Of a stretch of DNA of 64,000 bases, positions 1-26,540 are shown piece after piece. Source of the stretch: an uncultured Clostridia bacterium (GTDB lineage: Bacteria > Bacillota > Clostridia > Oscillospirales > Acutalibacteraceae); assembly GCA_945876745.1 (NCBI GenBank), contig CAMCPL010000001.1, forward strand, positions 248,001 through 312,000. Reading direction: 5' to 3'. The notes below the pieces were generated by a model. It was not told the origin of the DNA. It made no database searches and saw only the letters and a program-made list of their open reading frames with translations. Each line of letters starts with the position of its first letter. The first letter of the stretch is position 1. Made by a program: the position numbers and the translations under genes.

Positions 1-720
<720 letters not shown>

Positions 721-736
721 TAAAACAAAAAGAATT

Positions 737-765
737 GCTCTCGGCGTTTTGCCGAGAGCTTTTTT
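737..765 (+). terminator. Intrinsic terminator of gapA
   Basis: A nine-base perfect stem (GCTCTCGGC / GCCGAGAGC) with a five-base loop is followed directly by six T residues. Confidence 0.93.
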
Positions 766-826
766 AAGTGAAGTTTTGCGATAAATCGCAAAGTGAAGTT
801 TGCCTACGGCAAGATGAGGTTTGATT
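766..826. repeat. Micro-hairpin array with GTGAAGT/GATGAGGT spacers
   Basis: Short hairpins (TTGCGATAAATCGCAA, then TTGCCTACGGCAA) are separated by near-identical spacers AGTGAAGT, AGTGAAGT and GATGAGGT. The layout resembles arrays at 11214-11303, 30607-30648 and 55348-55430, which use ATGAAG or TGATGATAT spacers. It contains no coding potential. Confidence 0.6.
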
Positions 827-839
827 GATTATAGTTTGT

Positions 840-868
840 GGAATGACCGTGGGTCATTCCGTTTTTTT
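840..868 (+). terminator. Second hairpin terminator downstream of gapA
   Basis: GGAATGACC pairs with GGTCATTCC across a GTG loop and is followed by GTTTTTTT. It points in the + direction and may catch read-through from gapA before it reaches the oppositely oriented phospholipase-like gene. Confidence 0.8.
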
Positions 869-902
869 GTCCAATTGAAATGAAAATTTTAGGAATACAT
901 TC

Positions 903-1793
903 CTAAAAATTATGCGCTATGAGTTTTTCGCAAAGGGCAGGGGTTGGGAAGTCGAGGTAGATTGTGCCGTAGTATTTTTGCTTTTCAAGCGGATATTGCA
1001 TAAGCAGAGGATTGATAACGCTTGCGTTATATTTCGGACCCTTGAGCCCGCCTGCGGTTGAGGTGTAATTTATGATATACTTTCCCGAAAACTCCTGCAT
1101 ACTGTCCAAAAACGGCTTTAGGCAGTCGTTCCATCTTTGGTGCGGCTTATACTTAAACCTATCCTGAATGACAAATTCGGCGTTGTCCTCGTTGTGCGTT
1201 TTCAATATCAGAGGCTCTGGTACCGCGGTGTCCTGCTCAACCCAGCGTGAGAAGTCAATGCCGGTGTTGTCGCTGCTAAAGTCGGGATTGCTTTCGTCCA
1301 TTTTGCAACGTCTTATGAGCACGATTTTTCCCCTCGCTTCATTGAGCGTCGGGATTTTATTTTTTGTAAACCAAAAATCCTCATAGCCCTTTATGTAGGT
1401 GTAAAAAAGGTTGTTGAAGCATTTTTCGTTTTCCTTGTTGCTGTCGTTTTTGAACTGAAAAATTATTGTCTCGCTTGGATTTTCGTCTAAAAATTTATAG
1501 CAATGCTCCAAGACATCCGCCATATCCATCTGTACCCTCGGCTTTTTCGGGGAATTGAACGCCTTTGCAATACCGTGCACCATTCCGAGGCGCTCGCCAC
1601 TTGACTGAACACGGATATCAAGCGCACGAACGCCGATGCAAAGCTGCTCGTAAATATTCATATCCTGCGTATTCGAGATGTGCATAAGCTGAACATATTG
1701 GGTTACGCAGTCGTGAGTGCCGGGTATCGTGAGGGTAAACAAATCCCTTTCGCCGTCAATATTTTTCATCCAATTTCTTAAATCTGTTTTCAT
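903..1793 (-). CDS. PI-PLC X-domain phosphodiesterase-like protein
   Basis: The 296-residue product begins with the X-domain signature TIPGTHD, which carries the first catalytic histidine of bacterial phosphatidylinositol-specific phospholipases. ALDIRVQ and MVHGIAKAF (second catalytic His) follow, then PSETIIFQFKND and GKIVLIRR. The family cleaves phosphatidylinositol or GPI head groups by a cyclic-phosphate mechanism. The frame stays open further upstream, and an upstream ATG would add a hydrophobic leader. However, a consensus promoter (1810-1838) lies between that ATG and the start chosen here, so the shorter form is preferred. It has no signal peptide, which is unusual because characterised bacterial PI-PLCs are secreted. 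The substrate is unknown. Confidence 0.85.
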   Translation of the reverse strand: MKTDLRNWMKNIDGERDLFTLTIPGTHDCVTQYVQLMHISNTQDMNIYEQLCIGVRALDIRVQSSGERLGMVHGIAKAFNSPKKPRVQMDMADVLEHCYKFLDENPSETIIFQFKNDSNKENEKCFNNLFYTYIKGYEDFWFTKNKIPTLNEARGKIVLIRRCKMDESNPDFSSDNTGIDFSRWVEQDTAVPEPLILKTHNEDNAEFVIQDRFKYKPHQRWNDCLKPFLDSMQEFSGKYIINYTSTAGGLKGPKYNASVINPLLMQYPLEKQKYYGTIYLDFPTPALCEKLIAHNF

Positions 1794-1809
1794 TATTATC
1801 ACCAACAAA

Positions 1810-1838
1810 AGTATACCAAATTTGTGTAGTTTTATCAA
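1810..1838 (-). promoter_or_regulatory. Promoter of the PI-PLC-like gene
   Basis: On the minus strand TTGATA is followed after 17 bases by TATACT, about 17 bases before the ATG. The implied 5' leader is very short. On the + strand an overlapping divergent -10 (TATAAT at 1862-1867) probably serves the gene at 1897. Confidence 0.75.
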
Positions 1839-1896
1839 TAGAATACTTTTGTTCATAGTGGTATAATAAGAAAATAAAATATTTTTGAGGTAAAAT

Positions 1897-2331
1897 ATGG
1901 AATTGTTTACTAAATGCGGAGTGCTTACTCCGTCGCAAAGCAAGACAAATATTCGCTTTGATTTTGAGGTGCCCGGCGGCGTGAAGGCGTTGAGAGTTGA
2001 ATATAAATATTCTCCCAAGTACGTTGAGAATAAGGAAAAATCGGTTGAAATGATTAGCCTTGCGGCGAAAAAATACGGCGAGGAAATAAAATCGTTTGAT
2101 GATTTTCTGCCGCTGTCAAATTTAGTTACGCTTTCGTTCGACGATTGCAACGGCTATCGGGGAGCGTGTCACCGCCACCCAAACGAGCAGAACATTTATA
2201 TTTCGAGTGAGGCTTCAACGCCCGGAATTATCAATTCACCGATAACACAGGGAATGTGGAGCGTTATGCTCAATGTCCATTTTGTCGGAAGCGACGAGGT
2301 TGAGTATTCGATAAAAATTGAGGGGGAATAA
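1897..2331 (+). CDS. Conserved hypothetical protein paired with PHP hydrolase
   Basis: A 144-residue soluble protein with no recognised domain. It starts at an ATG seven bases after a GAGGT ribosome site and stops four bases before the PHP-family gene, so the two are almost certainly cotranscribed. The composition (alternating hydrophobic strands such as TNIRFDFEVPGG, LRVEYKYS, VMLNVHFVG and VEYSIKIEGE) suggests a mostly beta fold. A central polar stretch DDCNGYRGACHRHPNEQNI has a Cys/His pair that might bind metal. A role linked to the PHP enzyme is inferred from operon position only. Confidence 0.75.
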   Translation: MELFTKCGVLTPSQSKTNIRFDFEVPGGVKALRVEYKYSPKYVENKEKSVEMISLAAKKYGEEIKSFDDFLPLSNLVTLSFDDCNGYRGACHRHPNEQNIYISSEASTPGIINSPITQGMWSVMLNVHFVGSDEVEYSIKIEGE

Positions 2332-2334
2332 TTT

Positions 2335-3285
2335 ATGGCATACCTACCCTGCGAGCTTCACTGTCATACGGTGAACAGCGACGGAAAATTCACAACTAAA
2401 CAGCTTTTGCAGACTGCCGCCGACGACCACCTTGCGATTGTTGCGCTGACCGACCATAATACAATCAGCGGCTATGACGAGCTTGACGACAGCATTTTGC
2501 CGGCAATCAGGGGTGTTGAATGGACGACGTATTTCGGTCATATGCTTGTGCTGGGTGCAAAAAGCTTTGTTGACTGGCGTGACGCCGTACCCGATAATAT
2601 CGACGAAAAAATAAATCAGGTGAAATCCGTCGGCGGCGTTGTCGGAATTGCGCATCCGTTTCAGTTCGGCTCGCCTGTTTGTACCGGCGGACGTTGGGAA
2701 TTTAATATAAAGAATTGGCGTAATGTGGATTATATTGAGGTGTGGCACGGTGCATTTTCCGAAGAAAATACCGAAAACGACAGAGCGCTCGCACTTTGGA
2801 CGTCCCTGCTGGATAAGGGGTATCATATTGCCTGTACCTACGGCAGAGATTGGCATTCAAATGACGACAACGGTCATTTCGGCTGTACATATATTGATTT
2901 TGACGGCGAGATTAACGAGCAAGGTGCGCTCAAGGGAATTATGATGGGAAAGACAGTTGCGTCAACAGGCGCAAAATTCTTTTTCAGAGTTCATCAAAAG
3001 GGCAAGACATATCAAATCGGCGAAACTCTGCGCAGGGGAAACGCCGTTTTCAGCTTCTTTACGGACGTACATTCGAGGCAAAAGAATGCCGGAAACGAAT
3101 CCGTTGAGTATAAAACCGTTCGTCTTGTAACAAACGGCGGAGAATGTGTTATGCAGTCCGCTTTGTCCGAGCGTCATATAAGCGTAAGCCTAAAGAAAAA
3201 TCATTGGTACCGTGCCGAGCTTTGGGGAACGGTCAACGGAAAAGAAAGGATTTTAGCCGTTACCTCGCCCGTATATTCGGCATAA
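2335..3285 (+). CDS. PHP-domain metallohydrolase (CehA/McbA-like)
   Basis: A 316-residue protein carrying the ordered PHP metal motifs: HCHTVNSDG near residue 8, LTDHNTISGYDE near 38, RGVEWT near 61, GIAHPF near 104, and DWHSNDDNGHFG near 173. This order matches CehA/McbA-type metal-dependent phosphoesterases, which hydrolyse phosphate or ester substrates with a multinuclear centre. No signal peptide is visible, so it is probably cytosolic. A strong GGGGGA ribosome site precedes the ATG. The last ~110 residues look like a beta-rich accessory domain. The substrate cannot be read from the sequence. Confidence 0.88.
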   Translation: MAYLPCELHCHTVNSDGKFTTKQLLQTAADDHLAIVALTDHNTISGYDELDDSILPAIRGVEWTTYFGHMLVLGAKSFVDWRDAVPDNIDEKINQVKSVGGVVGIAHPFQFGSPVCTGGRWEFNIKNWRNVDYIEVWHGAFSEENTENDRALALWTSLLDKGYHIACTYGRDWHSNDDNGHFGCTYIDFDGEINEQGALKGIMMGKTVASTGAKFFFRVHQKGKTYQIGETLRRGNAVFSFFTDVHSRQKNAGNESVEYKTVRLVTNGGECVMQSALSERHISVSLKKNHWYRAELWGTVNGKERILAVTSPVYSA

Positions 3286-3377
3286 ATGATAATGAAAATA
3301 AATATTCATCATAAAAAATATTTATGACAAATTATAGATGGCTAAAAAACATTAATGTCAAAATGTTATTATGACTG

Positions 3378-3406
3378 TTGACTTTAACGCTTTTATGTGC
3401 TAAACT
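3378..3406 (+). promoter_or_regulatory. Promoter of the ABC importer operon
   Basis: TTGACT and TAAACT are separated by 17 bases, about 57 bases upstream of the lipoprotein start codon. Confidence 0.8.
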
Positions 3407-3463
3407 ATGCTTACAGATTCAGTGTAGGCTGAATATTTTCTTACAATAAGAGAGGTAATTACA

Positions 3464-4501
3464 ATGAAAAAAGCATTAAAAAGAATTGCCGCACTTGTTC
3501 TTGCAGTAGTATTGATTGCCGGAACATTCGCAGCTTGCAGCGGTTCAAAAGAAGAAACAGGCGCACAGATTGGTCTTCTGTACTGTTCGGCAGAGGCTAA
3601 CTCAAAGTACCAGGTTGAAAAGGTAAGCGAAGAGCTTGCAAAGCTCGGCTATGCAACAAAGGAATATTCCTTTGCAGACTCAAACGACCTTGCTTCGGTG
3701 CTTAACACAGCAGTTGCAGAATCAAAGGCAATCTACATTCCTACCGATAACACCTGCGCAAACAACGCAGAGCTTATCAATAACATTTGTGAGCCGGCAG
3801 GTATTCCTATCATCGCAGGTGAAGAGGGTATTTGCGAGGGCTGCGGCGTAGCAACACTTTCGATTTCCTACTATGACCTTGGTGTAGCAACCGCAAAGAT
3901 GGCTTACGACGTTCTTGTTAACGGTGCTGATATTTCAACAATGGAAATTTCTTATGTTGAACCGTCAACACTTGTAAAGAAAGCTATGCCGGAAAGAGCA
4001 CAGAAGCTCGGCATTACAATTCCCGACGGCTTTGTAGCAATCGGTGAAGAAGCTGCTGACGCAGAAAAGAATGAAGAAGAGCTTCCTAAGTACGACGGCG
4101 ACAAGGTATTCACTATCGGTATCTGCCAGCTTGTTCAGCACCCTGCACTTGACGCAGCAACACAGGGCTTCAAGGACGCACTTACAAAGATGCTCGGCGA
4201 CAAGGTTGTATTTGACGAGCAGAATGCTTCGGGCGATTCGGCTACTTGCTCAACAATCGTAAACCAATTCGTATCAAAGAATGTTGACCTTATTCTTGCA
4301 AACGCAACTCCTGCACTTCAGGCAGCTGCTTCTGCAACACAGGAAATTCCGATTCTCGGTACCTCTGTAACAGAATACGGCGTAGCACTTGACATTGCAG
4401 ATTTCAACGGCAAGACAGGCATCAACGTATCCGGTACATCAGACCTTGCTCCGCTTGATCAGCAGGCAGCACTCTTTGCAGAGCTTAATATTGCAAAGTA
4501 A
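3464..4501 (+). CDS. ABC substrate-binding lipoprotein (PF04392 type), apparently circularly permuted
   Basis: Residues 1-24 form a lipoprotein signal peptide ending in the lipobox FAAC, so the mature protein should be anchored outside the membrane. It matches the PF04392 binding-protein family, but the halves are in reverse order. The segment normally C-terminal (IGLLYCSAEANSKYQV, AIYIPTDNT, ISYYDLGVATAKMAY, KLGITIPDG) occupies roughly residues 35-195. A charged linker follows (AEKNEEELPKYDGDK). The segment normally N-terminal (IGICQLVQHPALDAATQGF, DLILANATPALQAA, IPILGTSVTEYG, VSGTSDLAPLDQQAALF) then runs to the stop. Both lobes look complete and uninterrupted. The gene heads a three-gene importer operon. 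The ligand is unknown; relatives are linked to amino acids or small organics. Confidence 0.9.
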   Translation: MKKALKRIAALVLAVVLIAGTFAACSGSKEETGAQIGLLYCSAEANSKYQVEKVSEELAKLGYATKEYSFADSNDLASVLNTAVAESKAIYIPTDNTCANNAELINNICEPAGIPIIAGEEGICEGCGVATLSISYYDLGVATAKMAYDVLVNGADISTMEISYVEPSTLVKKAMPERAQKLGITIPDGFVAIGEEAADAEKNEEELPKYDGDKVFTIGICQLVQHPALDAATQGFKDALTKMLGDKVVFDEQNASGDSATCSTIVNQFVSKNVDLILANATPALQAAASATQEIPILGTSVTEYGVALDIADFNGKTGINVSGTSDLAPLDQQAALFAELNIAK

Positions 4502-4523
4502 AAATAAAACAATTAATAATGCT

Positions 4524-4553
4524 ATGGCAACGGGATAAATCTCCTGTTGCCAT
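4524..4553 (+). promoter_or_regulatory. Intercistronic hairpin between binding protein and permease genes
   Basis: ATGGCAACGGGA pairs with TCCTGTTGCCAT (one G-T wobble) across a six-base loop, with no T-run after it. Such a hairpin between a binding-protein gene and its permease gene typically stabilises the upstream mRNA so that the binding protein is made in excess; that role is inferred. Confidence 0.6.
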
Positions 4554-4576
4554 TGTGTTCGTGAAGGAGAATTATA

Positions 4577-5503
4577 ATGGCATCATTATTAGCATCAATG
4601 CCGGGTGCTGTCGCTTACGGTATCATTTGGGGCATTATGGCAATCGGCGTGTATATAACTTTCAGAATACTCGATGTTGCCGATTTGACGGTTGACGGCT
4701 CGATGGCAACGGGCGGTATCGTGCTTGCCGTTCTTGTAAAAAACGGAACAAACATTTATCTTGCAGTTGTTATCGCGTTTATCGTTGGTTGTTTGGCGGG
4801 CTTGATAACAGGTATTTTTCATACTTTTTTCGGAATACCGGCAATTCTTGCAGGTATTTTGACACAGTTGAGCCTGTATTCGATAAATCTTCGTATTTCA
4901 AATAAAAATTCAAATGTCCCCGTAAGTGCAAGAAACATAGAAAATATTTTGCTCACCTCTGGGGATAACGTGAAATCAATTATTGTCTGTGTGATTTTTG
5001 CCGCTGTGACGATAGCTGTTTTGTATTGGTTTTTCGGAACGGAGGTTGGCTCGTCAGTACGTGCGACAGGCTGTAATCAGGCTATGTCGAGAGCAAACGG
5101 CATAAACACAAAGTTCAACATTATTTTCGGACTTGTTCTTTCAAACGGTTTAGTTGCACTTTCGGGCGCACTTTATGCACAGTATCAGGGCTTTGCAGAT
5201 ATTAATATGGGTCGTGGCGCTATCGTAATCGGTCTTGCGGCTGTTATTGTCGGCGAGGTTATCTTCGGCAAAATATTCCATAATTTTGCGCTCAAGCTCG
5301 TTGCAGTTGTCTGCGGCGGTATCATATACTATATTGTACAAAATATCGTTGTTTGGCTTGGTCTTGACGCTAACGACCTCAAGCTTCTTTCCGCAGTCGT
5401 TGTTGCAATATTCCTTGGACTTCCGTACTGGCAGAAGCAGGCAAAATCCAAATTTGGAATGAAGCAATCAAAGAATAAAAAGGGGGAAAATGTTAATGCT
5501 TAA
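4577..5503 (+). CDS. ABC transporter permease (BPD_transp_2 type)
   Basis: A 308-residue integral membrane protein with about eight to nine hydrophobic segments, beginning MASLLASMPGAVAYGIIWGI and continuing through ADLTVDGSMATGG, a motif typical of permeases paired with PF04392 binding proteins. GCNQAMSRANGINTK in the middle corresponds to the cytosolic loop that contacts the ATPase, and GRGAIVIGLAAVIVGE is a conserved late segment. It starts after an AAGGAGAA ribosome site and overlaps the ATPase gene by eight bases. It should form the membrane channel of the importer, probably as a homodimer. Confidence 0.92.
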   Translation: MASLLASMPGAVAYGIIWGIMAIGVYITFRILDVADLTVDGSMATGGIVLAVLVKNGTNIYLAVVIAFIVGCLAGLITGIFHTFFGIPAILAGILTQLSLYSINLRISNKNSNVPVSARNIENILLTSGDNVKSIIVCVIFAAVTIAVLYWFFGTEVGSSVRATGCNQAMSRANGINTKFNIIFGLVLSNGLVALSGALYAQYQGFADINMGRGAIVIGLAAVIVGEVIFGKIFHNFALKLVAVVCGGIIYYIVQNIVVWLGLDANDLKLLSAVVVAIFLGLPYWQKQAKSKFGMKQSKNKKGENVNA

Positions 5504-6293
5504 AATTAATAATGTTCACAAAACCTTTAACCCCGGCACTATTAACGAAAAAAAGGCGCTCAACGGAATTGACCTTACTCTCAACGAGGGCGATTTTGTA
5601 ACCGTTATCGGCGGTAACGGCGCAGGTAAGTCGACTATGCTCAATATGATTGCAGGCGTGTATCCTGTTGACTGCGGCAGCATTGTTATCGACGGCGTTG
5701 ACGTTACAAAGCTCCCTGAGCATAAGAGAGCAAAATATATCGGTCGTGTTTTCCAAGACCCGATGACAGGAACTGCGGCTGATATGCAGATTGTAGAAAA
5801 TCTTGCGCTTGCTTCAAGACGAGGACAGCATCGTGGCTTGGGTCCCGGTGTAAAGCATAAGGAAAAGGCAGAGTATGTTGAGCTTCTTGCAAGTCTTGAC
5901 CTCGGCTTGGAGGACAGATTGACCTCAAAAGTCGGACTCCTTTCGGGCGGTCAGCGACAGGCTGTAACGCTTCTTATGGCAACCTTGCGTAAGCCGAAGC
6001 TTTTGCTTCTTGACGAGCATACTGCCGCGCTTGACCCAAAGACTGCGAAAAAGGTGCTCGACCTTACCGAAAAAATCGTATCCGAAAATAATCTTACAAC
6101 GATTATGATTACTCATAATATGAAGGACGCCATTGCAATCGGTAACCGTCTTATTATGATGAACGACGGCAAGATTATCTACGACGTTAAGGGCGAGGAG
6201 AAAAAGGCGCTTACTACTGCCGACCTGCTTGCGAAGTTCAAGCTTACCTCAGGCGAGGAGCTTGATAACGACAGAATGTTGTTGTCGGAATAA
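5496..6293 (+). CDS. ABC transporter ATP-binding protein
   Basis: A 265-residue nucleotide-binding subunit with Walker A GGNGAGKST, a Q-loop near RVFQDPM, signature LLSGGQRQAV, Walker B LLLLDEH and the switch histidine in MITHNM. The D-loop reads AALDPKT and the residue after the Walker B glutamate is His rather than Pro, a variant also familiar from this importer subfamily. Two ATGs are possible (5490 and 5496). The second is chosen because it sits nine bases from the GGGGG ribosome site, the first only three. The start lies inside the permease gene, implying translational coupling. Confidence 0.93.
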   Translation: MLKINNVHKTFNPGTINEKKALNGIDLTLNEGDFVTVIGGNGAGKSTMLNMIAGVYPVDCGSIVIDGVDVTKLPEHKRAKYIGRVFQDPMTGTAADMQIVENLALASRRGQHRGLGPGVKHKEKAEYVELLASLDLGLEDRLTSKVGLLSGGQRQAVTLLMATLRKPKLLLLDEHTAALDPKTAKKVLDLTEKIVSENNLTTIMITHNMKDAIAIGNRLIMMNDGKIIYDVKGEEKKALTTADLLAKFKLTSGEELDNDRMLLSE

Positions 6294-6309
6294 AAAGCAA
6301 ATTAAAAAC

Positions 6310-6338
6310 TTGTAAAATAGATATAACAGGTATATAAT
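6310..6338 (+). promoter_or_regulatory. Promoter of the yeiH-like gene
   Basis: TTGTAA and TATAAT with a 17-base spacer. The -10 overlaps the first bases of the terminator stem of the upstream ABC operon. Confidence 0.75.
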
Positions 6339-6371
6339 ACGGATAGCGGATTTTCGTTGTCCGTATTTTTT
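6336..6371 (+). terminator. Terminator of the ABC importer operon
   Basis: AATACGGA pairs with TCCGTATT around an inner AGCG/CGTT stem and is followed by a run of T. It is interleaved with the promoter of the next gene. Confidence 0.75.
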
Positions 6372-6388
6372 ATTAGGAGTGACAATGT

Positions 6389-7489
6389 GTGGAATTTATA
6401 AAAAAGAAGGCGCCGGGAATTTTGGTATGTGCCTTGATTGCGGGGCTGGCAACCTTTTTGGCAAATCTCAGTATCGGCTCGTTCAGCTTGGAGGTTGTCG
6501 GCGCGCCTGTGTTTGCAATACTGATAGGTATGATAATCACTCTCGTTTTTCCGAGGCTTTCTTCGGGCGAGAGTATGAAGCAGGGCGTTACCTTTACTTC
6601 AAAAAAGATTTTGCAATGGGCGGTAATTATTCTCGGCTTCAGCCTTAATTTAGGCACTATTGCAAAGGTCGGCGCACAGTCGTTGCCTGTTATTATTTCG
6701 ACAATTCTCGTGTCGCTTTTGGTTGCAATGCTTTTGATGAGGGTTATGAAAATCGACAAAAAGGTTGCCTGCCTTATCGGCGTGGGCTCGTCGATATGCG
6801 GCGGCTCGGCTATTGCGGCGACTGCTCCTGTTATTGACGCAGACGACGAGGAGGTTGCGCAGAGTATCAGCGTAATCTTTTTGTTCAATGTTGTTGCGGC
6901 GTTGATATTTCCGACTCTCGGCTATAACATTTTAGGTCTCGGCTCGGAGGGCTTTGCGATTTTTGCAGGTACTGCGGTAAACGATACCTCGTCCGTTACT
7001 GCGGCGGCTTCAACTGCTGAGGGCTTGTATGGCGTTGAGGGTATTTTGTCCTCTGCCGTAACTGTAAAATTAACGAGAACGCTCGCCATTATTCCGATTA
7101 CTCTTGTGCTTGCTTTCATTCGCACAAAAAGAGCGAAGAAAAACGGCGGCAATGCTTCGAGTGTTTCGCTTAAAAAGATTTTTCCGTTTTTCATTATTTA
7201 TTTTGTAATAGCTTCGGTTATTACAACACTTGTCGGTATTATGGCTCAAAACGGCGTTGCGGCGGCGTTTTGCGAATTTTATAACGGCAGCTTTGTTGCG
7301 TGGGCAAAGTGGCTTGCGAAATTTTTTATTGCAATGGCTATGTGCGCAATCGGACTTAATACGAATATCGTAAATTTGATTAAAAAGGGCGGCAAGCCGA
7401 TTTTGCTGGGCTTTTGCTGCTGGGTTGCGATTACCGGCGTTTCACTCGGCGTTCAAATGCTCACCGGTATTTATTCAACGAATCTGTAA
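6389..7489 (+). CDS. YeiH/PSE-type putative sulfate exporter family membrane protein
   Basis: A 366-residue membrane protein with about ten hydrophobic helices. The glycine-rich motif GVGSSICGGSAIAATAPVI followed by DDEEVAQSI and a later FAGTAVNDTSSVTAA are hallmarks of the YeiH (PF03601) family. Members are annotated as putative sulfate or sulfonate exporters, but transport has rarely been shown. The start is a GTG nine bases after AGGAG; no in-frame ATG fits. The gene has its own promoter and is followed 12 bases later by a DUF4250 gene, probably in the same transcript. Confidence 0.88.
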   Translation: MEFIKKKAPGILVCALIAGLATFLANLSIGSFSLEVVGAPVFAILIGMIITLVFPRLSSGESMKQGVTFTSKKILQWAVIILGFSLNLGTIAKVGAQSLPVIISTILVSLLVAMLLMRVMKIDKKVACLIGVGSSICGGSAIAATAPVIDADDEEVAQSISVIFLFNVVAALIFPTLGYNILGLGSEGFAIFAGTAVNDTSSVTAAASTAEGLYGVEGILSSAVTVKLTRTLAIIPITLVLAFIRTKRAKKNGGNASSVSLKKIFPFFIIYFVIASVITTLVGIMAQNGVAAAFCEFYNGSFVAWAKWLAKFFIAMAMCAIGLNTNIVNLIKKGGKPILLGFCCWVAITGVSLGVQMLTGIYSTNL

Positions 7490-7501
7490 AGGGGTGACAA
7501 T

Positions 7502-7678
7502 ATGGCATTACCGAATGATGCGTTTATGCTGTTGAGCGTGGTTAATACAAAGCTGAGGGATAATTACGACAGCTTGGATGCGCTTTGCGATGACTTGGGC
7601 GAGGATAAAGAAAGGATTGTTTCAACGCTCGCTTCAATTGGTTTTGAATATATTGAGGAACTAAACAGCTTTAAGTAA
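7502..7678 (+). CDS. DUF4250 family protein
   Basis: A 58-residue protein too short for most gene callers but clearly real: it follows an AGGGGTGACA ribosome site and carries the family pattern LPNDAFMLLSVVNTKLRDNYDSL-x-LC with the C-terminal SIGFEY and NSF segments. DUF4250 proteins are small and cytosolic, and are common in Clostridia. Their function is unknown; the fold looks like a small helical bundle. Cotranscription with the upstream exporter gene is likely from the 12-base gap. Confidence 0.88.
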   Translation: MALPNDAFMLLSVVNTKLRDNYDSLDALCDDLGEDKERIVSTLASIGFEYIEELNSFK

Positions 7679-7730
7679 AAATACAATAAGCATATTTTAC
7701 TACTATTTCACTCAAAAATTATTACAAACT

Positions 7731-7766
7731 TGTACAACTATGGACAGTCCATAGTTGTACATTTTT
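7731..7766 (+). terminator. Intrinsic terminator after DUF4250 gene
   Basis: A 14-bp perfect stem, TGTACAACTATGGA / TCCATAGTTGTACA, with a CAG loop and TTTTT. The stem could also act as a DNA operator, as it resembles the GTAC-containing palindrome at 7966-7979. Confidence 0.85.
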
Positions 7767-7772
7767 ATTTAT

Positions 7773-7899
7773 AAACCACCAAAGGGGACGGTTCCTATTG
7801 TTGGTTTTATAGGGCTAAAAGCCGCATAAATACTGCATTTTTTAATTTTTGTTCTTATACTAAAACCAACAAGGGGAACCGTCCCCTTTGTTGGTTTTG
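7773..7899. repeat. Palindromic GGGGACGG repeat, paired copy A
   Basis: Two inverted palindromic units with the core AGGGGACGGTTCC flanked by CCACC/CCAAC and GGTGG/GTTGG, separated by about 70 bases. The spacer (GGGCTAAAAGCCGCATAAAT and on to TACTGCATTTTTT) recurs, reverse-complemented, in copy D at 46433-46561. It looks like a REP/BIME or MITE-type element; no transposase is present in the window. Confidence 0.85.
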
Positions 7900-7920
7900 G
7901 GTGGGAGTGGAAATTTTTTG

Positions 7921-7979
7921 TTGACAAAAGTTTTAAGATGTGGTATATATAAAGTGCAACAACTGTACTATGCATAGTA
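7921..7979 (+). promoter_or_regulatory. Promoter and palindromic operator of the GntR-ABC operon
   Basis: TTGACA-17-TATATA (7921-7949) is followed at 7966-7979 by the perfect palindrome TACTATGCATAGTA, itself within TGTAC...GTACA. A palindrome just downstream of the -10 and ahead of a GntR gene is the expected place for an autoregulatory operator. Confidence 0.75.
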
Positions 7980-8018
7980 GTACAGATAGTACAATAAATC
8001 GGAAAGGAAGAACGCTCT

Positions 8019-8387
8019 ATGATTTCGATAGACACAAGAAGCAGGGTGCCGATTTACACCCAGCTTGAAAAACAAATCATCAAGCTGATAAATCTCGGCG
8101 TTTACGAAACGGACAGTCCTCTGCCGTCGGTACGCAGTATGGCTTGCGAGCTCGGAATAAATCCGAACACCGTTGCAAAAGCGTATAAAGAGCTTGAGCA
8201 ACAGGGTGTGGTTTACACCGTAACGGGCAAAGGGCTTTTCGTAAGCTCGTCGGATTTATCATCGGTTCACAAGCTGACAATCAAAGCCGCGAAAAGTGCC
8301 TTGATTGACGCAAAAAATTCAGGAATTGACAAAGCAACCATTGTCAAAATCATCAATGAAATATGGGAGGAGGCAAACAATGATTAA
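8019..8387 (+). CDS. GntR-family transcriptional regulator, YtrA-like
   Basis: A 122-residue regulator. The first ~70 residues form the winged helix (RVPIYTQLEKQIIKLI, LPSVRSMACELGINPNTVAKAY, LEQQGVVYTVTGKGLFV). Only a short helical tail follows, as in the YtrA subfamily rather than full-length FadR or HutC types. YtrA-like proteins repress adjacent ABC transporter operons and often respond to cell-envelope stress. It overlaps the next gene by eight bases (ATGATTAA). The likely operator is the palindrome upstream. The inducer is not evident. Confidence 0.93.
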   Translation: MISIDTRSRVPIYTQLEKQIIKLINLGVYETDSPLPSVRSMACELGINPNTVAKAYKELEQQGVVYTVTGKGLFVSSSDLSSVHKLTIKAAKSALIDAKNSGIDKATIVKIINEIWEEANND

Positions 8388-9279
8388 AATAAGCAATGCC
8401 ACAAAGTGCTTCGGCGACAAAAAAGCACTTGATAACATATCGTTTAATATCGAGGACGGCTCCGTTTTCGGACTTGTCGGTTCAAACGGTGCAGGAAAGA
8501 GTACGCTTCTTCGTGTTCTTGCAGGCGTTTACAGTCTTGAGGGCGGACAGGTGTTTATTAACGGCGAGGCTCCGTTTGAAAATAAAGCAATAAAGCAGCA
8601 AACGGCATTCGTCTCCGATTATCCGTATTTTGATTCGGGCTCAACGCTTTTGAAAACGGCGAGCTTTTACAGAGCACTTTATCCGACTTGGGATCAAGAA
8701 AGATTCACAGCACTTTGCAACACGTTTCCGATTAATCCGCAGCAAAAGATTTCGACTATGAGCAAGGGTATGCAAAGGCAGACTGCAATAATTCTTGCAC
8801 TCAGCTTCAACCCAAGAGTGATTTTGTTTGATGAAATTTTTGACGGACTTGACCCGGTTATTCGTGAGCTTGTAAAGAAAATACTTATTGAATATGTTGA
8901 CGAAACAAAGGCGAGCATAGTCATTGCTTCCCATAATCTGCGTGAGCTTGAGGGCTTTTGCGACCATATCGGTCTTTTGCACAACGGTGGCATACTTATG
9001 GAGCGTGACATTGACGGTGACGCAATCGGTCTTTATCGCTTGCAGTTTGTTATGAGCGACGAGGACTACAACGAAATAAAAGGTTCGCTCAATATCACAA
9101 AGGAAAATAGACAGGGCAAGGTAATCGAAATTACCGTAAAGGGCGAGCAGGAAAGAATTGAAGAGATAATCAACAGTAAAAATCCGATATTCTTTGAGGC
9201 TCTGCCGTTAACACTTGAGGAATTATTTATCAGCGAAATGGAGGTAGCAGGATATGACATCAACAGCTTCAAAGCCTAA
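8380..9279 (+). CDS. ABC transporter ATP-binding protein (YtrB/BcrA-like)
   Basis: A 299-residue ATPase: Walker A GSNGAGKST, signature-like MSKGMQRQ in place of LSGGQ, Walker B VILFDEIFDGLDP and switch His in IASHNL. The SKGM variant is common in BcrA/YtrB-type exporter ATPases. The C-terminal ~90 residues form an extra domain (LQFVMSDEDYNEIKG and on to ALPLTLEELFI) found in these export ATPases. The start follows GGGAGGAGG and overlaps the regulator gene. It pairs with the permease at 9254, overlapping it by 26 bases, in an antibiotic- or stress-response-type export operon. Confidence 0.92.
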   Translation: MIKISNATKCFGDKKALDNISFNIEDGSVFGLVGSNGAGKSTLLRVLAGVYSLEGGQVFINGEAPFENKAIKQQTAFVSDYPYFDSGSTLLKTASFYRALYPTWDQERFTALCNTFPINPQQKISTMSKGMQRQTAIILALSFNPRVILFDEIFDGLDPVIRELVKKILIEYVDETKASIVIASHNLRELEGFCDHIGLLHNGGILMERDIDGDAIGLYRLQFVMSDEDYNEIKGSLNITKENRQGKVIEITVKGEQERIEEIINSKNPIFFEALPLTLEELFISEMEVAGYDINSFKA

Positions 9280-11212
9280 AAACTACACTTCTCTTGCATT
9301 TAAGCGAGCCTTCAAGGAAACGCTTGTCAATACCGTTCTTGCACTCGGTGCGTCCATAGTATCGGTTATTATCGCATTCAGCTCAACGGCGGCGGACATA
9401 GCCTTAAGCGGTGCGAATTATAACCACGACAGCGAGTATTTCACTGTTGAAATTATGCCGCCGGTAGTCTTTGTTCTTGCGCTTATTACAGGTTTTTTCA
9501 GTCTTACGACCGTACCGAGAATGTTCAGGCAGATATACAAAAAGCAGTCGTGCGACAGCTATTTTTCAGTACCGATAAAGCGTGAGGAATACTTCGTTGC
9601 AAATTATTTTTACGGATTCTTGGTAAATATTGTATGCTTTATTCTACCGCTTGCCGTTTATTTAGGCGCAATTCAGACAATGAAGTCAAACTTGATTGAT
9701 TTAGGATATGTTTTGAAGTTTGCGTCGGTTTTTATGCTTGCGGTTCTTGCGATGTATTCGGCGTTTGTCGTATGCGCCGTAATCTCGGGCAAGAGAATAC
9801 AATATTTGATTTTGAGTCTTATTTGTCTTTTTTGCACCTCGACAATGCTCACAGGCATTGCAACAAAAATCTGCTCAATTTGGGGATTTTCGGGCGACTT
9901 GACATTATTGAATGCGCTCAGCCCCATTGACAACGCCATAGCAGGCGCATATTTCTACGAGGGTGTTGAGGCTGACAATGTTATCCCGCTTATAATAATT
10001 TCGCTTGTTGAGATTATCGGCTTGTTTATTGCAGGATACATTGCGTTCAAAAAGAGAAAGGCAGAGACTGCCGAGAGCTCGCTTTCGGGTAAGGTTATTC
10101 CCTATGTTATTCTTGCGATTTTAGTCGGCGCCGCATTCTTCTTCAGCGCAACGGGAACCGGTGCAGTTGATATCGTTGTCGGCATTGTTCTTGCAACCTT
10201 GATGGCAATGGCGTTCGGCGGCATTTTCTACAAAAAGGTGTTTACAAAGCAGACGTTAATTACGCTTATCGGTGTTTGCACAGTATTTACAACTCTTTCG
10301 ATAGTGGTTACACTTCCTATTTTCAACGGCTATGTAAAATACGTACCCGAGGCAAGCGAGGTTGACAGCATAGAATTCAGCTCGGTTGCGAATTACGGAA
10401 GCTACACAACGGGAATAAACGAGCTTCTCGGCACGAGCGTGGGTTATACGGATTTCGGCGATGCAATAACTTTTGTTGAGCAAGAGAATATCGAAAAGGT
10501 AATTGCGCTTCATAACAAATCTATTGAGGACGAAGCAATCAAGACGACGAGAAAAAAGAATAATGTTTCGTTGTTGAGAACGATGCTTTTCATGGACAGC
10601 TATTATGACGATGCGTATATAAGCGATGCGTCCTACAGAATTAAATATAACCTTGCAGACGGCTCAACGGTAGAGCGAGTTTATTCCGTATCCAATAACC
10701 TCGTAACAAAGGAATATTACGATGTTTTCCAAAATGAGGAGGCACTCTGGCAATTAGAACCTATGAAATACGATAACGAAAAGTTTTTGGGAGTAGAGTG
10801 TTCGGTATATAACAATGGTGACGAGTACTCAGAGGAAAGCGTTGAGCTTGTCAATTTCGACATTGAGCAATACAAAAAGGCACTTGTAAAGGATTATCTC
10901 TCAATGCAGCGTACTACCTTTATTTCGGAATTTGACAGCTTTGAGTCTTCATATTACGGTATGTATTATGGTAAGTACTACGACTATGACGAATACTATC
11001 CCGTATGTAACGTCGACCTGTATTTTGCAAATGACGATATAACCGACGAGGAGCTTGCAGAATATAAGAAGATGCCGACGTCACGTCTGTTAAACGCTAT
11101 TTACGAGGACTATGATAAGAATTATAAGGCGTGGTATTTCTCTCGTGACTTTTCAAATGATTATACGAATACCGTGGAATACCTCAATTCCTGCGGAGCG
11201 GGCTTGAATTAA
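9254..11212 (+). CDS. ABC transporter permease with large extracytoplasmic C-terminal domain
   Basis: A 652-residue protein. Residues ~1-370 contain about nine hydrophobic segments in ABC-2-like arrangement. The remaining ~280 residues are soluble, acidic and rich in tyrosine (for example YYGMYYGKYYDYDEYY near residues 572-587), presumably outside the membrane. The combination resembles clostridial permeases carrying a DUF6449-type tail, though that assignment is from memory. The start at 9254 follows GGAGG by nine bases and lies inside the ATPase gene, indicating tight coupling. The substrate is unknown; context with a YtrA-like regulator suggests lipid- or envelope-stress-related export. 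Confidence 0.85.
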   Translation: MTSTASKPKNYTSLAFKRAFKETLVNTVLALGASIVSVIIAFSSTAADIALSGANYNHDSEYFTVEIMPPVVFVLALITGFFSLTTVPRMFRQIYKKQSCDSYFSVPIKREEYFVANYFYGFLVNIVCFILPLAVYLGAIQTMKSNLIDLGYVLKFASVFMLAVLAMYSAFVVCAVISGKRIQYLILSLICLFCTSTMLTGIATKICSIWGFSGDLTLLNALSPIDNAIAGAYFYEGVEADNVIPLIIISLVEIIGLFIAGYIAFKKRKAETAESSLSGKVIPYVILAILVGAAFFFSATGTGAVDIVVGIVLATLMAMAFGGIFYKKVFTKQTLITLIGVCTVFTTLSIVVTLPIFNGYVKYVPEASEVDSIEFSSVANYGSYTTGINELLGTSVGYTDFGDAITFVEQENIEKVIALHNKSIEDEAIKTTRKKNNVSLLRTMLFMDSYYDDAYISDASYRIKYNLADGSTVERVYSVSNNLVTKEYYDVFQNEEALWQLEPMKYDNEKFLGVECSVYNNGDEYSEESVELVNFDIEQYKKALVKDYLSMQRTTFISEFDSFESSYYGMYYGKYYDYDEYYPVCNVDLYFANDDITDEELAEYKKMPTSRLLNAIYEDYDKNYKAWYFSRDFSNDYTNTVEYLNSCGAGLN

Positions 11213-11213
11213 A

Positions 11214-11303
11214 ATGAAGCACTCGCTAAAGCGAGTATGAAGCATCAGCAAAGCCGACATGAAGCATTGACTTCGTCAATATGAAGCAGCTACGCTGTGA
11301 AAA
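11214..11303. repeat. Micro-hairpin array with ATGAAGC spacers
   Basis: Four consecutive units each start with ATGAAGC and carry a small hairpin: ACTCGCTAAAGCGAGT, ATCAGCAAAGCCGAC (imperfect), ATTGACTTCGTCAAT, and AGCTACGCTGTG. The third unit is identical to one at 30607-30648. The array sits directly after the permease stop codon. Confidence 0.75.
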
Positions 11304-11308
11304 ATGAA

Positions 11309-11436
11309 TCCCTCAGTCGGCAAAGCCGCCAGCTCCCCTTACCATAAGGGGAGCTAAAGTTCAAGACGGAGTGCTTATCCAACCAATACAGGCTCCCCTT
11401 ATGGTAAGGGGAGCTGTCACGAAGTGACTGAGGGGA
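11309..11436. repeat. MITE-like element with CCCTCAGTC termini
   Basis: A roughly 128-bp unit bounded by TCCCTCAGTC and GACTGAGGGGA in inverted orientation. Inside are two copies of the palindromic block AGCTCCCCTTA...TAAGGGGAGCT, which can also pair with each other. The structure fits a miniature inverted-repeat element; no transposase is encoded. Confidence 0.8.
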
Positions 11437-11440
11437 TAAG

Positions 11441-11611
11441 AAAAAACAAAGGGGACGGTTCCTATTGGTGGTAAAACAGGCTTGAAAGCCGCTGAAATAC
11501 AGCATTTCTGAATTTTGCAAAATTGAAAAAACCAACAAGGAGAACCGTCCCCCTTGTTGGTTTTGTTAAATAAAAGCCACCAAAGAGAACCGTCCCCTTT
11601 GGTGGTTTTTG
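11441..11611. repeat. Palindromic GGGGACGG repeat, triple copy B
   Basis: Three palindromic units with the core GGGGACGGTTC (one forward, two reversed). The spacer between the first two (CAGGCTTGAAAGCCGCTGAA...) is related to the spacers of copies A and D. The last unit abuts the stop codon of the amidohydrolase on the minus strand, where CCACCAAAGGGG / CTTTGGTGG followed by CTTTTATTT could serve as its terminator. Confidence 0.85.
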
Positions 11612-12337
11612 TTATAATTTCAGTAGTTTTTTTGCGTTGTTGTAAAAGACGTCCTCCTGCTCCTTTTGATTAAGTCCGCAGGTCAAAACCTTTTGAATTT
11701 CTACTGTCGGGTGGTGGAACGGAGAGTCGATACCAAACATAATTCTGTCGCTTCCGACCTCTCTGTAAGCCTCAAGAATCTTGCTTCCCATCGGCATACC
11801 GCTCATTTCAAGATACAGATTCGGATAGCGCTTCGCCATTTTTATTGAAGCGTCAATATAAACTCCGTGACCGTGTCCCATATGAATCATTGTAACATTT
11901 ACATCGGGATATTTTTCCGCAAGCAATGCAATGCTCCACGGCAGAGAAAACGGCGGATGTCCGCAATGAATGAAAACAGGAACGTCATTCTCTCTTGCAA
12001 AATCCATAACGGGGTAAACACACGGGTCGTCTGCAACAAATGCATCGAACAACGGCTGCATTTTTATTCCCGCAAAGCCCTCTTTGTTGATATATCTTTC
12101 GAGCTTTTCTTCAACATTGTCAAGTGCCGGATTTACCCAAACAAACGGCACGACCTTTTCAGGATATGACTGAAAAGCGTCTACAACCTCGTCGTTTCCC
12201 TGAAAAGAGGACGCTGTCAAAAACGTCTTTTCAATCTCATACTCCTCCATTTGCTCAACAAGGCGTTGCTTGTTGAAATCAACACCTGCCCAGCCTCCGA
12301 ATTTTCCTATGTGTGAATGTGCGTCGATTTTTTTCAT
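11612..12337 (-). CDS. Amidohydrolase-family metal-dependent hydrolase
   Basis: A 241-residue TIM-barrel hydrolase of the amidohydrolase 2 (PF04909) type. Motifs in order are DAHSHIG at the N terminus (metal His-x-His), GFAGIKMQP, FIHCGHPPFS, MIHMGHG and the C-terminal catalytic aspartate in FGIDSPF. The substrate is unknown; relatives act on decarboxylation or hydrolysis of small carboxylates and amides. It ends in a palindromic repeat that may terminate transcription. The ECF S-component gene lies ten bases upstream on the same strand, so transport and hydrolysis of a shared compound is a plausible inference. Confidence 0.88.
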   Translation of the reverse strand: MKKIDAHSHIGKFGGWAGVDFNKQRLVEQMEEYEIEKTFLTASSFQGNDEVVDAFQSYPEKVVPFVWVNPALDNVEEKLERYINKEGFAGIKMQPLFDAFVADDPCVYPVMDFARENDVPVFIHCGHPPFSLPWSIALLAEKYPDVNVTMIHMGHGHGVYIDASIKMAKRYPNLYLEMSGMPMGSKILEAYREVGSDRIMFGIDSPFHHPTVEIQKVLTCGLNQKEQEDVFYNNAKKLLKL

Positions 12338-26378: not shown

Positions 26379-26392
26379 AGATTTACAAATTA

Positions 26393-26502
26393 TTTCAGGG
26401 CGAGGCGAAATTCCTCACCGGTGGTAAAGTCCACGACCTATCGTAAGATAGCTGACTCGGTGAAATTCCGAGACCGACGGTTAAAGTCCGGATGAGAGAA
26501 AT
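26393..26502 (+). ncRNA. FMN riboswitch (RFN element)
   Basis: The conserved RFN words appear in order: CAGGGCGAGGCGAAATTCC, CACCGGTGGTAAAGTCCACG, a variable hairpin (CTATCGTAAGATAG), CTGACTCGGTGAAATTCCGA, GACCGACGGTTAAAGTCCGG and ATGAGAG. It binds flavin mononucleotide and switches off the downstream riboflavin transporter gene, here apparently through the terminator at 26541-26575. Confidence 0.98.
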
Positions 26503-26540
26503 ATATATTTATTTTTGCATTTTGCAGGATATGATTATTC

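Follow-up and report, generated by a model that had tools for sequence, protein, structure and literature searches.

A PF04392 substrate-binding lipoprotein with its halves in swapped order in an uncultured Clostridia bacterium, and recurrence of the arrangement among its relatives

The open frame at positions 3464 to 4501 (plus strand) of the window, the whole 64,000-nucleotide stretch of DNA analyzed here, very probably encodes a functional substrate-binding lipoprotein with a natural circular permutation. It would belong to an ABC importer of the aromatic-amino-acid type (probably tyrosine) and would have been born by duplication, fusion, and trimming. Directly observed are the order of the halves and its conservation, with no ordinary copy found alongside; purifying selection; an operon context; repeated occurrence of the swap; and a fused relative with the order A-B-A-B.

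RESULTS AND DISCUSSION

Order of the halves

The frame encodes a lipoprotein of 345 amino acids and runs without an internal stop, in agreement with the earlier note, which had found no frameshift. Its layout is signal peptide, lipobox, half B, linker, half A, and stop, all on the plus strand. A probable ribosome-binding site (GAGAGG, 3450 to 3455), judged from sequence, lies ahead of the signal peptide (residues 1 to 24; 3464 to 3535), which aligned in 11 permuted proteins. The lipobox cysteine, Cys25 (FAAC), and a short tether (residues 25 to 34; 3536 to 3565) follow, and Cys25 is invariant in 11 of the 11 aligned permuted proteins. Half B, the canonical second half or C-lobe, now comes first (residues 35 to 192; 3566 to 4039), and half A, the canonical first half or N-lobe, now comes last and ends at the hinge (residues 214 to 345; 4103 to 4498). 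The joining linker proposed in the earlier note is present (residues 193 to 213; 4040 to 4102), but its description as short did not hold, as about 20 residues is not very short.

Against PF04392, the whole protein scored 158.9 bits in two stretches (cut-off, 25.9), the best of which aligned residues 35 to 191 with profile positions 133 to 286. In a search of the whole genome, the profile matched with positions 133 to 286 (82.1 bits) and then, downstream, with positions 2 to 126 (81.1 bits), and each half alone exceeded the cut-off of 25.9. No colinear match to profile positions 1 to 293 was obtained; the order was 133 to 286 followed by 2 to 126, and the protein is therefore a permuted PF04392 member. 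These matches bear out the earlier claims that the second half stands ahead of the first with both complete and that the cut lies at the interlobe boundary (between profile positions 126 and 133), and the separate profile check of each half that had been proposed returned the swapped order. The profile order also rules out the reading that both halves belong to a single non-permuted family. The three PDB sequences found, 6hni (CD0873), 3lft (SP1069), and 3lkv (VC_1101) (protein names from PMC6816091), support the same assignments of both halves, all aligning as two swapped stretches with i-Evalues of 1.3e-21 to 6.1e-10. Chance is excluded as the source of the swapped order.

The end of the permuted protein corresponds to the helix that leads into the hinge in ordinary relatives (AELNIAK-stop here; AELLPDAKTVGLLYCSAE in L023), and after the tether the permuted chain opens with the strand that comes after the hinge. 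The TrpX profile (NF041285) matched at 200.2 bits, again in two stretches, and did not reach its equivalog cut-off of 390 bits.

Operon and neighborhood

An ABC permease (BPD_transp_2; 4577 to 5503, plus strand; PF02653, 105.3 bits) and an ABC ATPase (5490 to 6293, plus strand; PF00005, 101.5 bits) follow the receptor gene, and their matches across 4577 to 6293 agree with the earlier description of both genes as intact. Permease and ATPase genes are also directly downstream in nine of the nine further loci of the window's type, perm1 (L004 to L012), and in L013. The same is true of all three loci (L114 to L116) of a second permuted type, perm2; for a third type, perm3, the two genes lie directly downstream in all three loci fetched with wide flanks.

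No T-box or other RNA regulator was found near 3464 by Rfam search at the gathering score; a trpX system under T-box control has been reported from Streptococcus suis (PMC9382623). No conserved chromosomal position was found: the window neighbors at 184 to 720, 1897 to 2331, 2335 to 3285 (PHP), and 6389 to 7489 (PF03601) were unmatched in the other permuted loci searched, many of which are short. As to phage carriage, 12 stretches of viral contigs matched a pattern, and none of them encoded a relative. Elsewhere in the window, an FMN riboswitch (RF00050) was found at 26387 to 26507 (112.4 bits). The later part of the minus-strand frame at 903 to 2150 presumably resembles a phosphatidylinositol phospholipase C-type domain.

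Distribution and selection within the genus

Of 84 related loci recovered from contigs of GTDB genomes, the best 80 were kept; 67 of these had the order A-B and 10 (L004 to L013) had B-A in one open frame, while L065 and L067 scored for half A only and L016 for half B only. L016 (ONXZ01000100.1, 4865 to 5827) has the start of a permuted-type receptor whose homology ends after about residue 150; beyond that point come permease-like sequence of no relation to the receptor and a stretch of N, and the locus looks like a chimeric join.

A census of 80 genomes of the genus used a profile built on the B-to-A junction (E ≤ 1e-34), and order was then verified with profiles of the halves. Perm1 was present in 10 of the 80 genomes and perm2 in 7; 16 of the 80 held perm1 and/or perm2, and G935 holds both, separately permuted (G935:C91 and G935:C22). 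Contig coordinates show that L004 to L012 account for nine of the ten perm1 genomes; they were not counted twice. In G936 and G011, the census match spans ordinary genes in tandem that are separated by stops. The B-A order thus recurs in the related genomes, where the earlier note had suggested looking for it, and within a clade it has become fixed. The 10 perm1 genomes yielded no ordinary copy of the window's subfamily, their other matches to the window protein (E ≤ 1e-5) being at most 37% identical, an absence weakened by the completeness of 6 of the 10 assemblies (67 to 90%).

Both halves of perm1 are under purifying selection. Across 10 perm1 sequences (Nei-Gojobori), median dN/dS was 0.073 for half A and 0.090 for half B (45 of 45 pairs usable for each), compared with 0.32 for the linker (29 of 45 pairs) and 0.41 for the signal peptide plus tether (44 of 45 pairs). 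Medians for perm2 (0.063; 6 sequences, 7 of 15 pairs usable) and perm3 (0.12; 10 sequences, 27 of 45 pairs usable) are rough owing to saturation.

These distributions bear on two other readings of the gene. A collapsed or misjoined tandem repeat could in principle create a B-A order during assembly; the window lies within one contig of an 18-contig assembly, and relatives do have tandem genes for substrate-binding proteins. However, the identical order occurs in 10 of the 80 genomes of the genus, the perm1 linkers are all 20 to 21 residues long and yet have diverged in sequence, and dN/dS is low. We regard the chance of such an artifact as negligible, and an assembly rearrangement at 3464 to 4501 is ruled out by the B-A order in 10 genomes. 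The frame might instead be decaying and of no further use to the transporter, which is extremely unlikely given that purifying selection acts on both halves, that no other copy of the subfamily was found in any of the 10 perm1 genomes, and that the operon is intact; the dN/dS values led us to reject a pseudogene.

Further permuted types

Perm2 (e.g., L114 to L116 and L166 to L168) is a different subfamily, 23 to 30% identical to perm1, that carries the same swap, with its cut near PF04392 position 131; the corresponding cut points are near 126/133 in perm1 and near 207 in perm3. The second PF04392 gene of the window genome is an ordinary A-B relative of perm2. Among 39 genomes of a sister genus, an open B-to-A junction was detected in 13 (E ≤ 1e-34): 11 with complete B-A perm2 genes, one whose gene is cut at a contig end (G998), and one whose gene is altered further (G986). 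The cut perm2 gene (L248; G998:C28) ends in a short tail that seems to resemble sequencing-adapter sequence.

Perm3 (e.g., L129, L138, and L141) has the order B2-A-B1, with the cut inside the second lobe. Of 146 genomes sampled from the family, 27 matched perm3 at E ≤ 1e-35, but only 10 of the 146 (that of the query included) gave near-full-length matches to the permuted query; the other 17 matched over the ordinary-order part only. More broadly, an open B-to-A junction was found in 7 of 394 genomes sampled from the order (E ≤ 1e-30; one perm1, three perm2, and three perm3), and 10 of 398 genomes sampled from the phylum matched at E ≤ 1e-27, with a permuted gene only in the window's own genome. 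In the phylum sample, matches spanning the junction in G624 and G620 were tandem ordinary genes with stops, and that in G669 was a fused A-B-A-B frame. The junction cut-offs were chosen to suppress half matches, and weaker permuted relatives may escape these counts.

The altered gene of G986 is complete and has the order A2-B-A1 (L244:1016-2143, minus strand; G986:C104). The perm2 linker still joins B to A1 in its protein. Past the lipobox and its tether, the chain starts at the region of the fourth strand in the first lobe (IPVIFSAVSDP), and it terminates once the helix preceding that region is complete (QSATEEA-stop). The moved piece is present once only, and a permease gene lies downstream. 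The nearest relative of the protein, from G987, has the plain perm2 order, and the two share 94% identity across B, linker, and A1. Most simply, the perm2 swap would have been followed by a second permutation. The order may instead be a chimera, as it was seen in one assembly among the 39 sister-genus genomes, 85% complete and in about 130 contigs.

Phylogeny and number of origins

For phylogenetic analysis, halves were reordered to A+B and then aligned. The 232 frames comprised 189 AB, 24 BA, 16 BAB, 1 ABAB, 1 A only, and 1 B only. Removal of short (L028, L078, L125, and L187), incomplete (L016 and L067), and duplicate sequences left 193 rows, which clustering reduced to 85 tree rows, 25 of them permuted; the G986 gene was found afterwards and is absent from the tree. 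Permuted rows fell in four places, and the starred branches force at least four order changes. Perm1 (9 rows; support, 100/100), perm2 (5 rows; 100/94), and perm3 (10 rows; 100/100) each formed a group, and L013 adjoined an ordinary Bacilli protein, L057 (99/84), in a tree whose bootstrap had not fully settled (0.989 versus the 0.99 wanted).

Approximately unbiased (AU) tests were run on a set of 36 rows. A single clade of perm1 and perm2 was rejected (P = 1.9e-60), as was one of L013 and perm2 (P = 1e-4). Rejection of perm1 with L013 was less firm (P = 0.014), this group having been named after the tree was seen, and with half A alone the group was not rejected (P = 0.67). With half B alone, a starred branch united L013 with a single ordinary row, and its nearest row was L057. 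Since the tests on L013 are weaker, three separate origins of permutation in the family are firmly indicated, and a fourth, that of L013, a Bacilli protein, is probable. PF04392 has been permuted several times and at more than one cut point.

One ancient permutation followed by reversions to A-B would account for the shared cut of perm1, L013, and perm2 at the same hinge and for the clade of L013 and perm1 left standing by half A alone, and G986 suggests that permutation can strike an already permuted gene. Against such a history, perm1 and perm2 are only 23 to 30% identical to each other, yet their closest ordinary relatives reach 71% (perm1) and 76% (perm2) identity; a joint perm1 and perm2 clade is rejected at the P value given above; perm3 is cut at another place; and reversion would require several precise repermutations. 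We therefore consider a single event very unlikely and continue with several separate permutations.

Route of origin

Perm1 may have arisen through tandem duplication of an ancestral A-B gene, fusion of the two copies into one frame, and loss of the outer halves and the second signal peptide, which would leave signal, B, linker, and A, with the old C terminus joined to the old N terminus through the 20-residue linker. This route, put forward in the earlier note as tandem duplication and trimming, is supported by inference from three kinds of evidence: an A-B-A-B fusion, tandem genes, and linkers that look like a tail plus a tether. The fusion, in G669, is a single open frame (L260:2763-4712) with two full PF04392 stretches in about 640 residues; its protein has one N-terminal hydrophobic segment without an obvious lipobox, and permease and ATPase genes lie downstream. 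Like perm1, it belongs to PF04392 and holds a B-A junction ahead of a permease and an ATPase, but its outer halves are still present. It shows that fusions of this kind exist, not that one was the perm1 intermediate, and its genome is distant from perm1.

Tandem ordinary receptor genes were found at nine loci in eight genomes (L117 and L109, from one genome, G011:C35, and L153, L154, L069, L052, L146, L212, and L218), among 179 loci with an A-B frame that include some repeats of a genome and many short flanks. Such genes could serve as the starting point for permutation through duplication. The perm2 linker, of about 45 residues, retains a tail (PFCQAIKPITTAEAFED in L114) that ordinary relatives carry at their C terminus (L216 has PFCTKVNSITTAESFDDLK). 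In the perm1 linker the retained tail is acidic and resembles those of L023 and other ordinary relatives. By comparison with unpermuted relatives, the linkers, including that of the window protein, may be read as the old C-terminal tail (acidic in perm1) followed by the old N-terminal tether. No remnants of the lost halves were found beside the window gene (window 1 to 12000; remaining tblastn matches at E ≥ 0.067), and no A-B-A-B intermediate was seen inside any permuted lineage.

Fold, ligand, and function

Fold, ligand, and any effect of the moved anchor are, like the route, inferred. Homology to 6hni, 3lft, and 3lkv suggests a type I two-lobed fold, and the permuted chain should fold into the usual flytrap. 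One of the three hinge crossings would be cut, because the hinge of CD0873 is reported to have three loops (PMC6816091) and the cut falls at the lobe boundaries; in three dimensions, hinge connectivity would thus be swapped, and the lipid anchor would now stand ahead of the other lobe. Alternatively, the lobes might not close within one chain, and the functional unit might be a dimer, with lobes exchanged between two or more chains. A linker of some 20 residues (45 or so in perm2), with each half close to a lobe, could favor this, but TpMglB-2, a known permuted type I receptor, is reported to fit a monomer that changes shape on ligand binding (PMC4990184), and we consider the dimer unlikely.

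The PF04392 receptors of known structure are described as binding tyrosine (CD0873; 6hni), phenylalanine (VC_1101; 3lkv), and tryptophan (SP1069; 3lft) (PMC6816091). In CD0873, tyrosine is reportedly bound via Glu263, which bonds its hydroxyl, and Tyr279 excludes tryptophan (PMC6816091). By alignment, Glu120 (3821 to 3823, plus strand) and Tyr136 (3869 to 3871, plus strand) of the window protein are the equivalents, and each is kept in 10 of 10 perm1 rows. The pair also occurs in L013 and in 10 of 10 perm3 rows, whereas perm2 has Ala/Tyr in six of six rows, as in the phenylalanine-binding VC_1101. Since Glu/Tyr is also found in 140 of 166 unpermuted rows, it is the common state of the family and does not single out the window protein. 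A tyrosine-type importer is our best guess for the window protein, though not a specific one.

Precedent and implications

The window protein resembles CD0873, VC_1101, and SP1069 in the homology of both halves and CD0873 in its Glu/Tyr selectivity residues, but these receptors run A-B, whereas it runs B-A with a new linker and the anchor ahead of the other lobe. Permutation of two-lobed receptors as such is already known. The closest precedent in the sources available to us is TpMglB-2 (Tp0684) of Treponema pallidum, a crystallized, naturally permuted type I glucose receptor and lipoprotein ("Type Ic / Cluster Bc") that is described as changing shape on binding glucose and as having relatives in Gram-positive gut bacteria (PMC4990184). 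It belongs to a sugar family and is reported to be cut in the N-lobe after the third strand, with a fourth crossing added (PMC4990184), whereas the PF04392 proteins are cut at the first hinge crossing (perm1 and perm2) or inside the C-lobe (perm3). The window protein does not have the TpMglB-2-type cut but one at the lobe boundary, positions 126/133; the additional cut in G986 is inside the N-lobe, apparently at the same place as that of TpMglB-2, going by an inferred strand count. Against the sugar-receptor profile PF13407, to which we assume TpMglB-2 belongs, the window protein scored 23.3 bits, below the cut-off of 35.1. Glycine-betaine and molybdate receptors have likewise been related by permutation, through structure comparison at <24% identity, but are different two-lobed ABC receptors (PMC2395249).

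No report of a permuted PF04392 protein was found in a literature search of titles and the openings of abstracts, mostly outside subscription journals. The earlier statement that no permutation is described in this family stands to that extent, while a permuted type I receptor of another family, TpMglB-2, has been published. As far as the same search reaches, what is new is permutation in PF04392, with several origins in one order and more than one cut point, together with what is probably a serial permutation, a genus in which some genomes have the swap and others lack it, and a fused A-B-A-B relative.

More speculatively, PF04392 may be a permutation hot spot in gut Bacillota, with at least four separate permutations and one serial permutation at three cut points, one of them as in TpMglB-2. 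Tandem genes would supply the raw material, and swaps would be fixed because the moved anchor or ends alter docking or opening on the permease. We offer this proposal tentatively and consider it rather doubtful. In published cases, as far as the accounts available describe them, permuted receptors were compared only with distant relatives (PMC4990184 and PMC2395249). Here, identity between permuted and ordinary proteins reaches 66 to 76% for perm1, L013, and perm2 and 44 to 48% for perm3, and one genus holds two permuted types plus ordinary members. These close permuted and ordinary pairs, together with repeated permutation, provide a natural experiment on the birth of such swaps, and may also serve to address how well a flytrap tolerates a cut hinge crossing and whether it matters for import which lobe bears the anchor.
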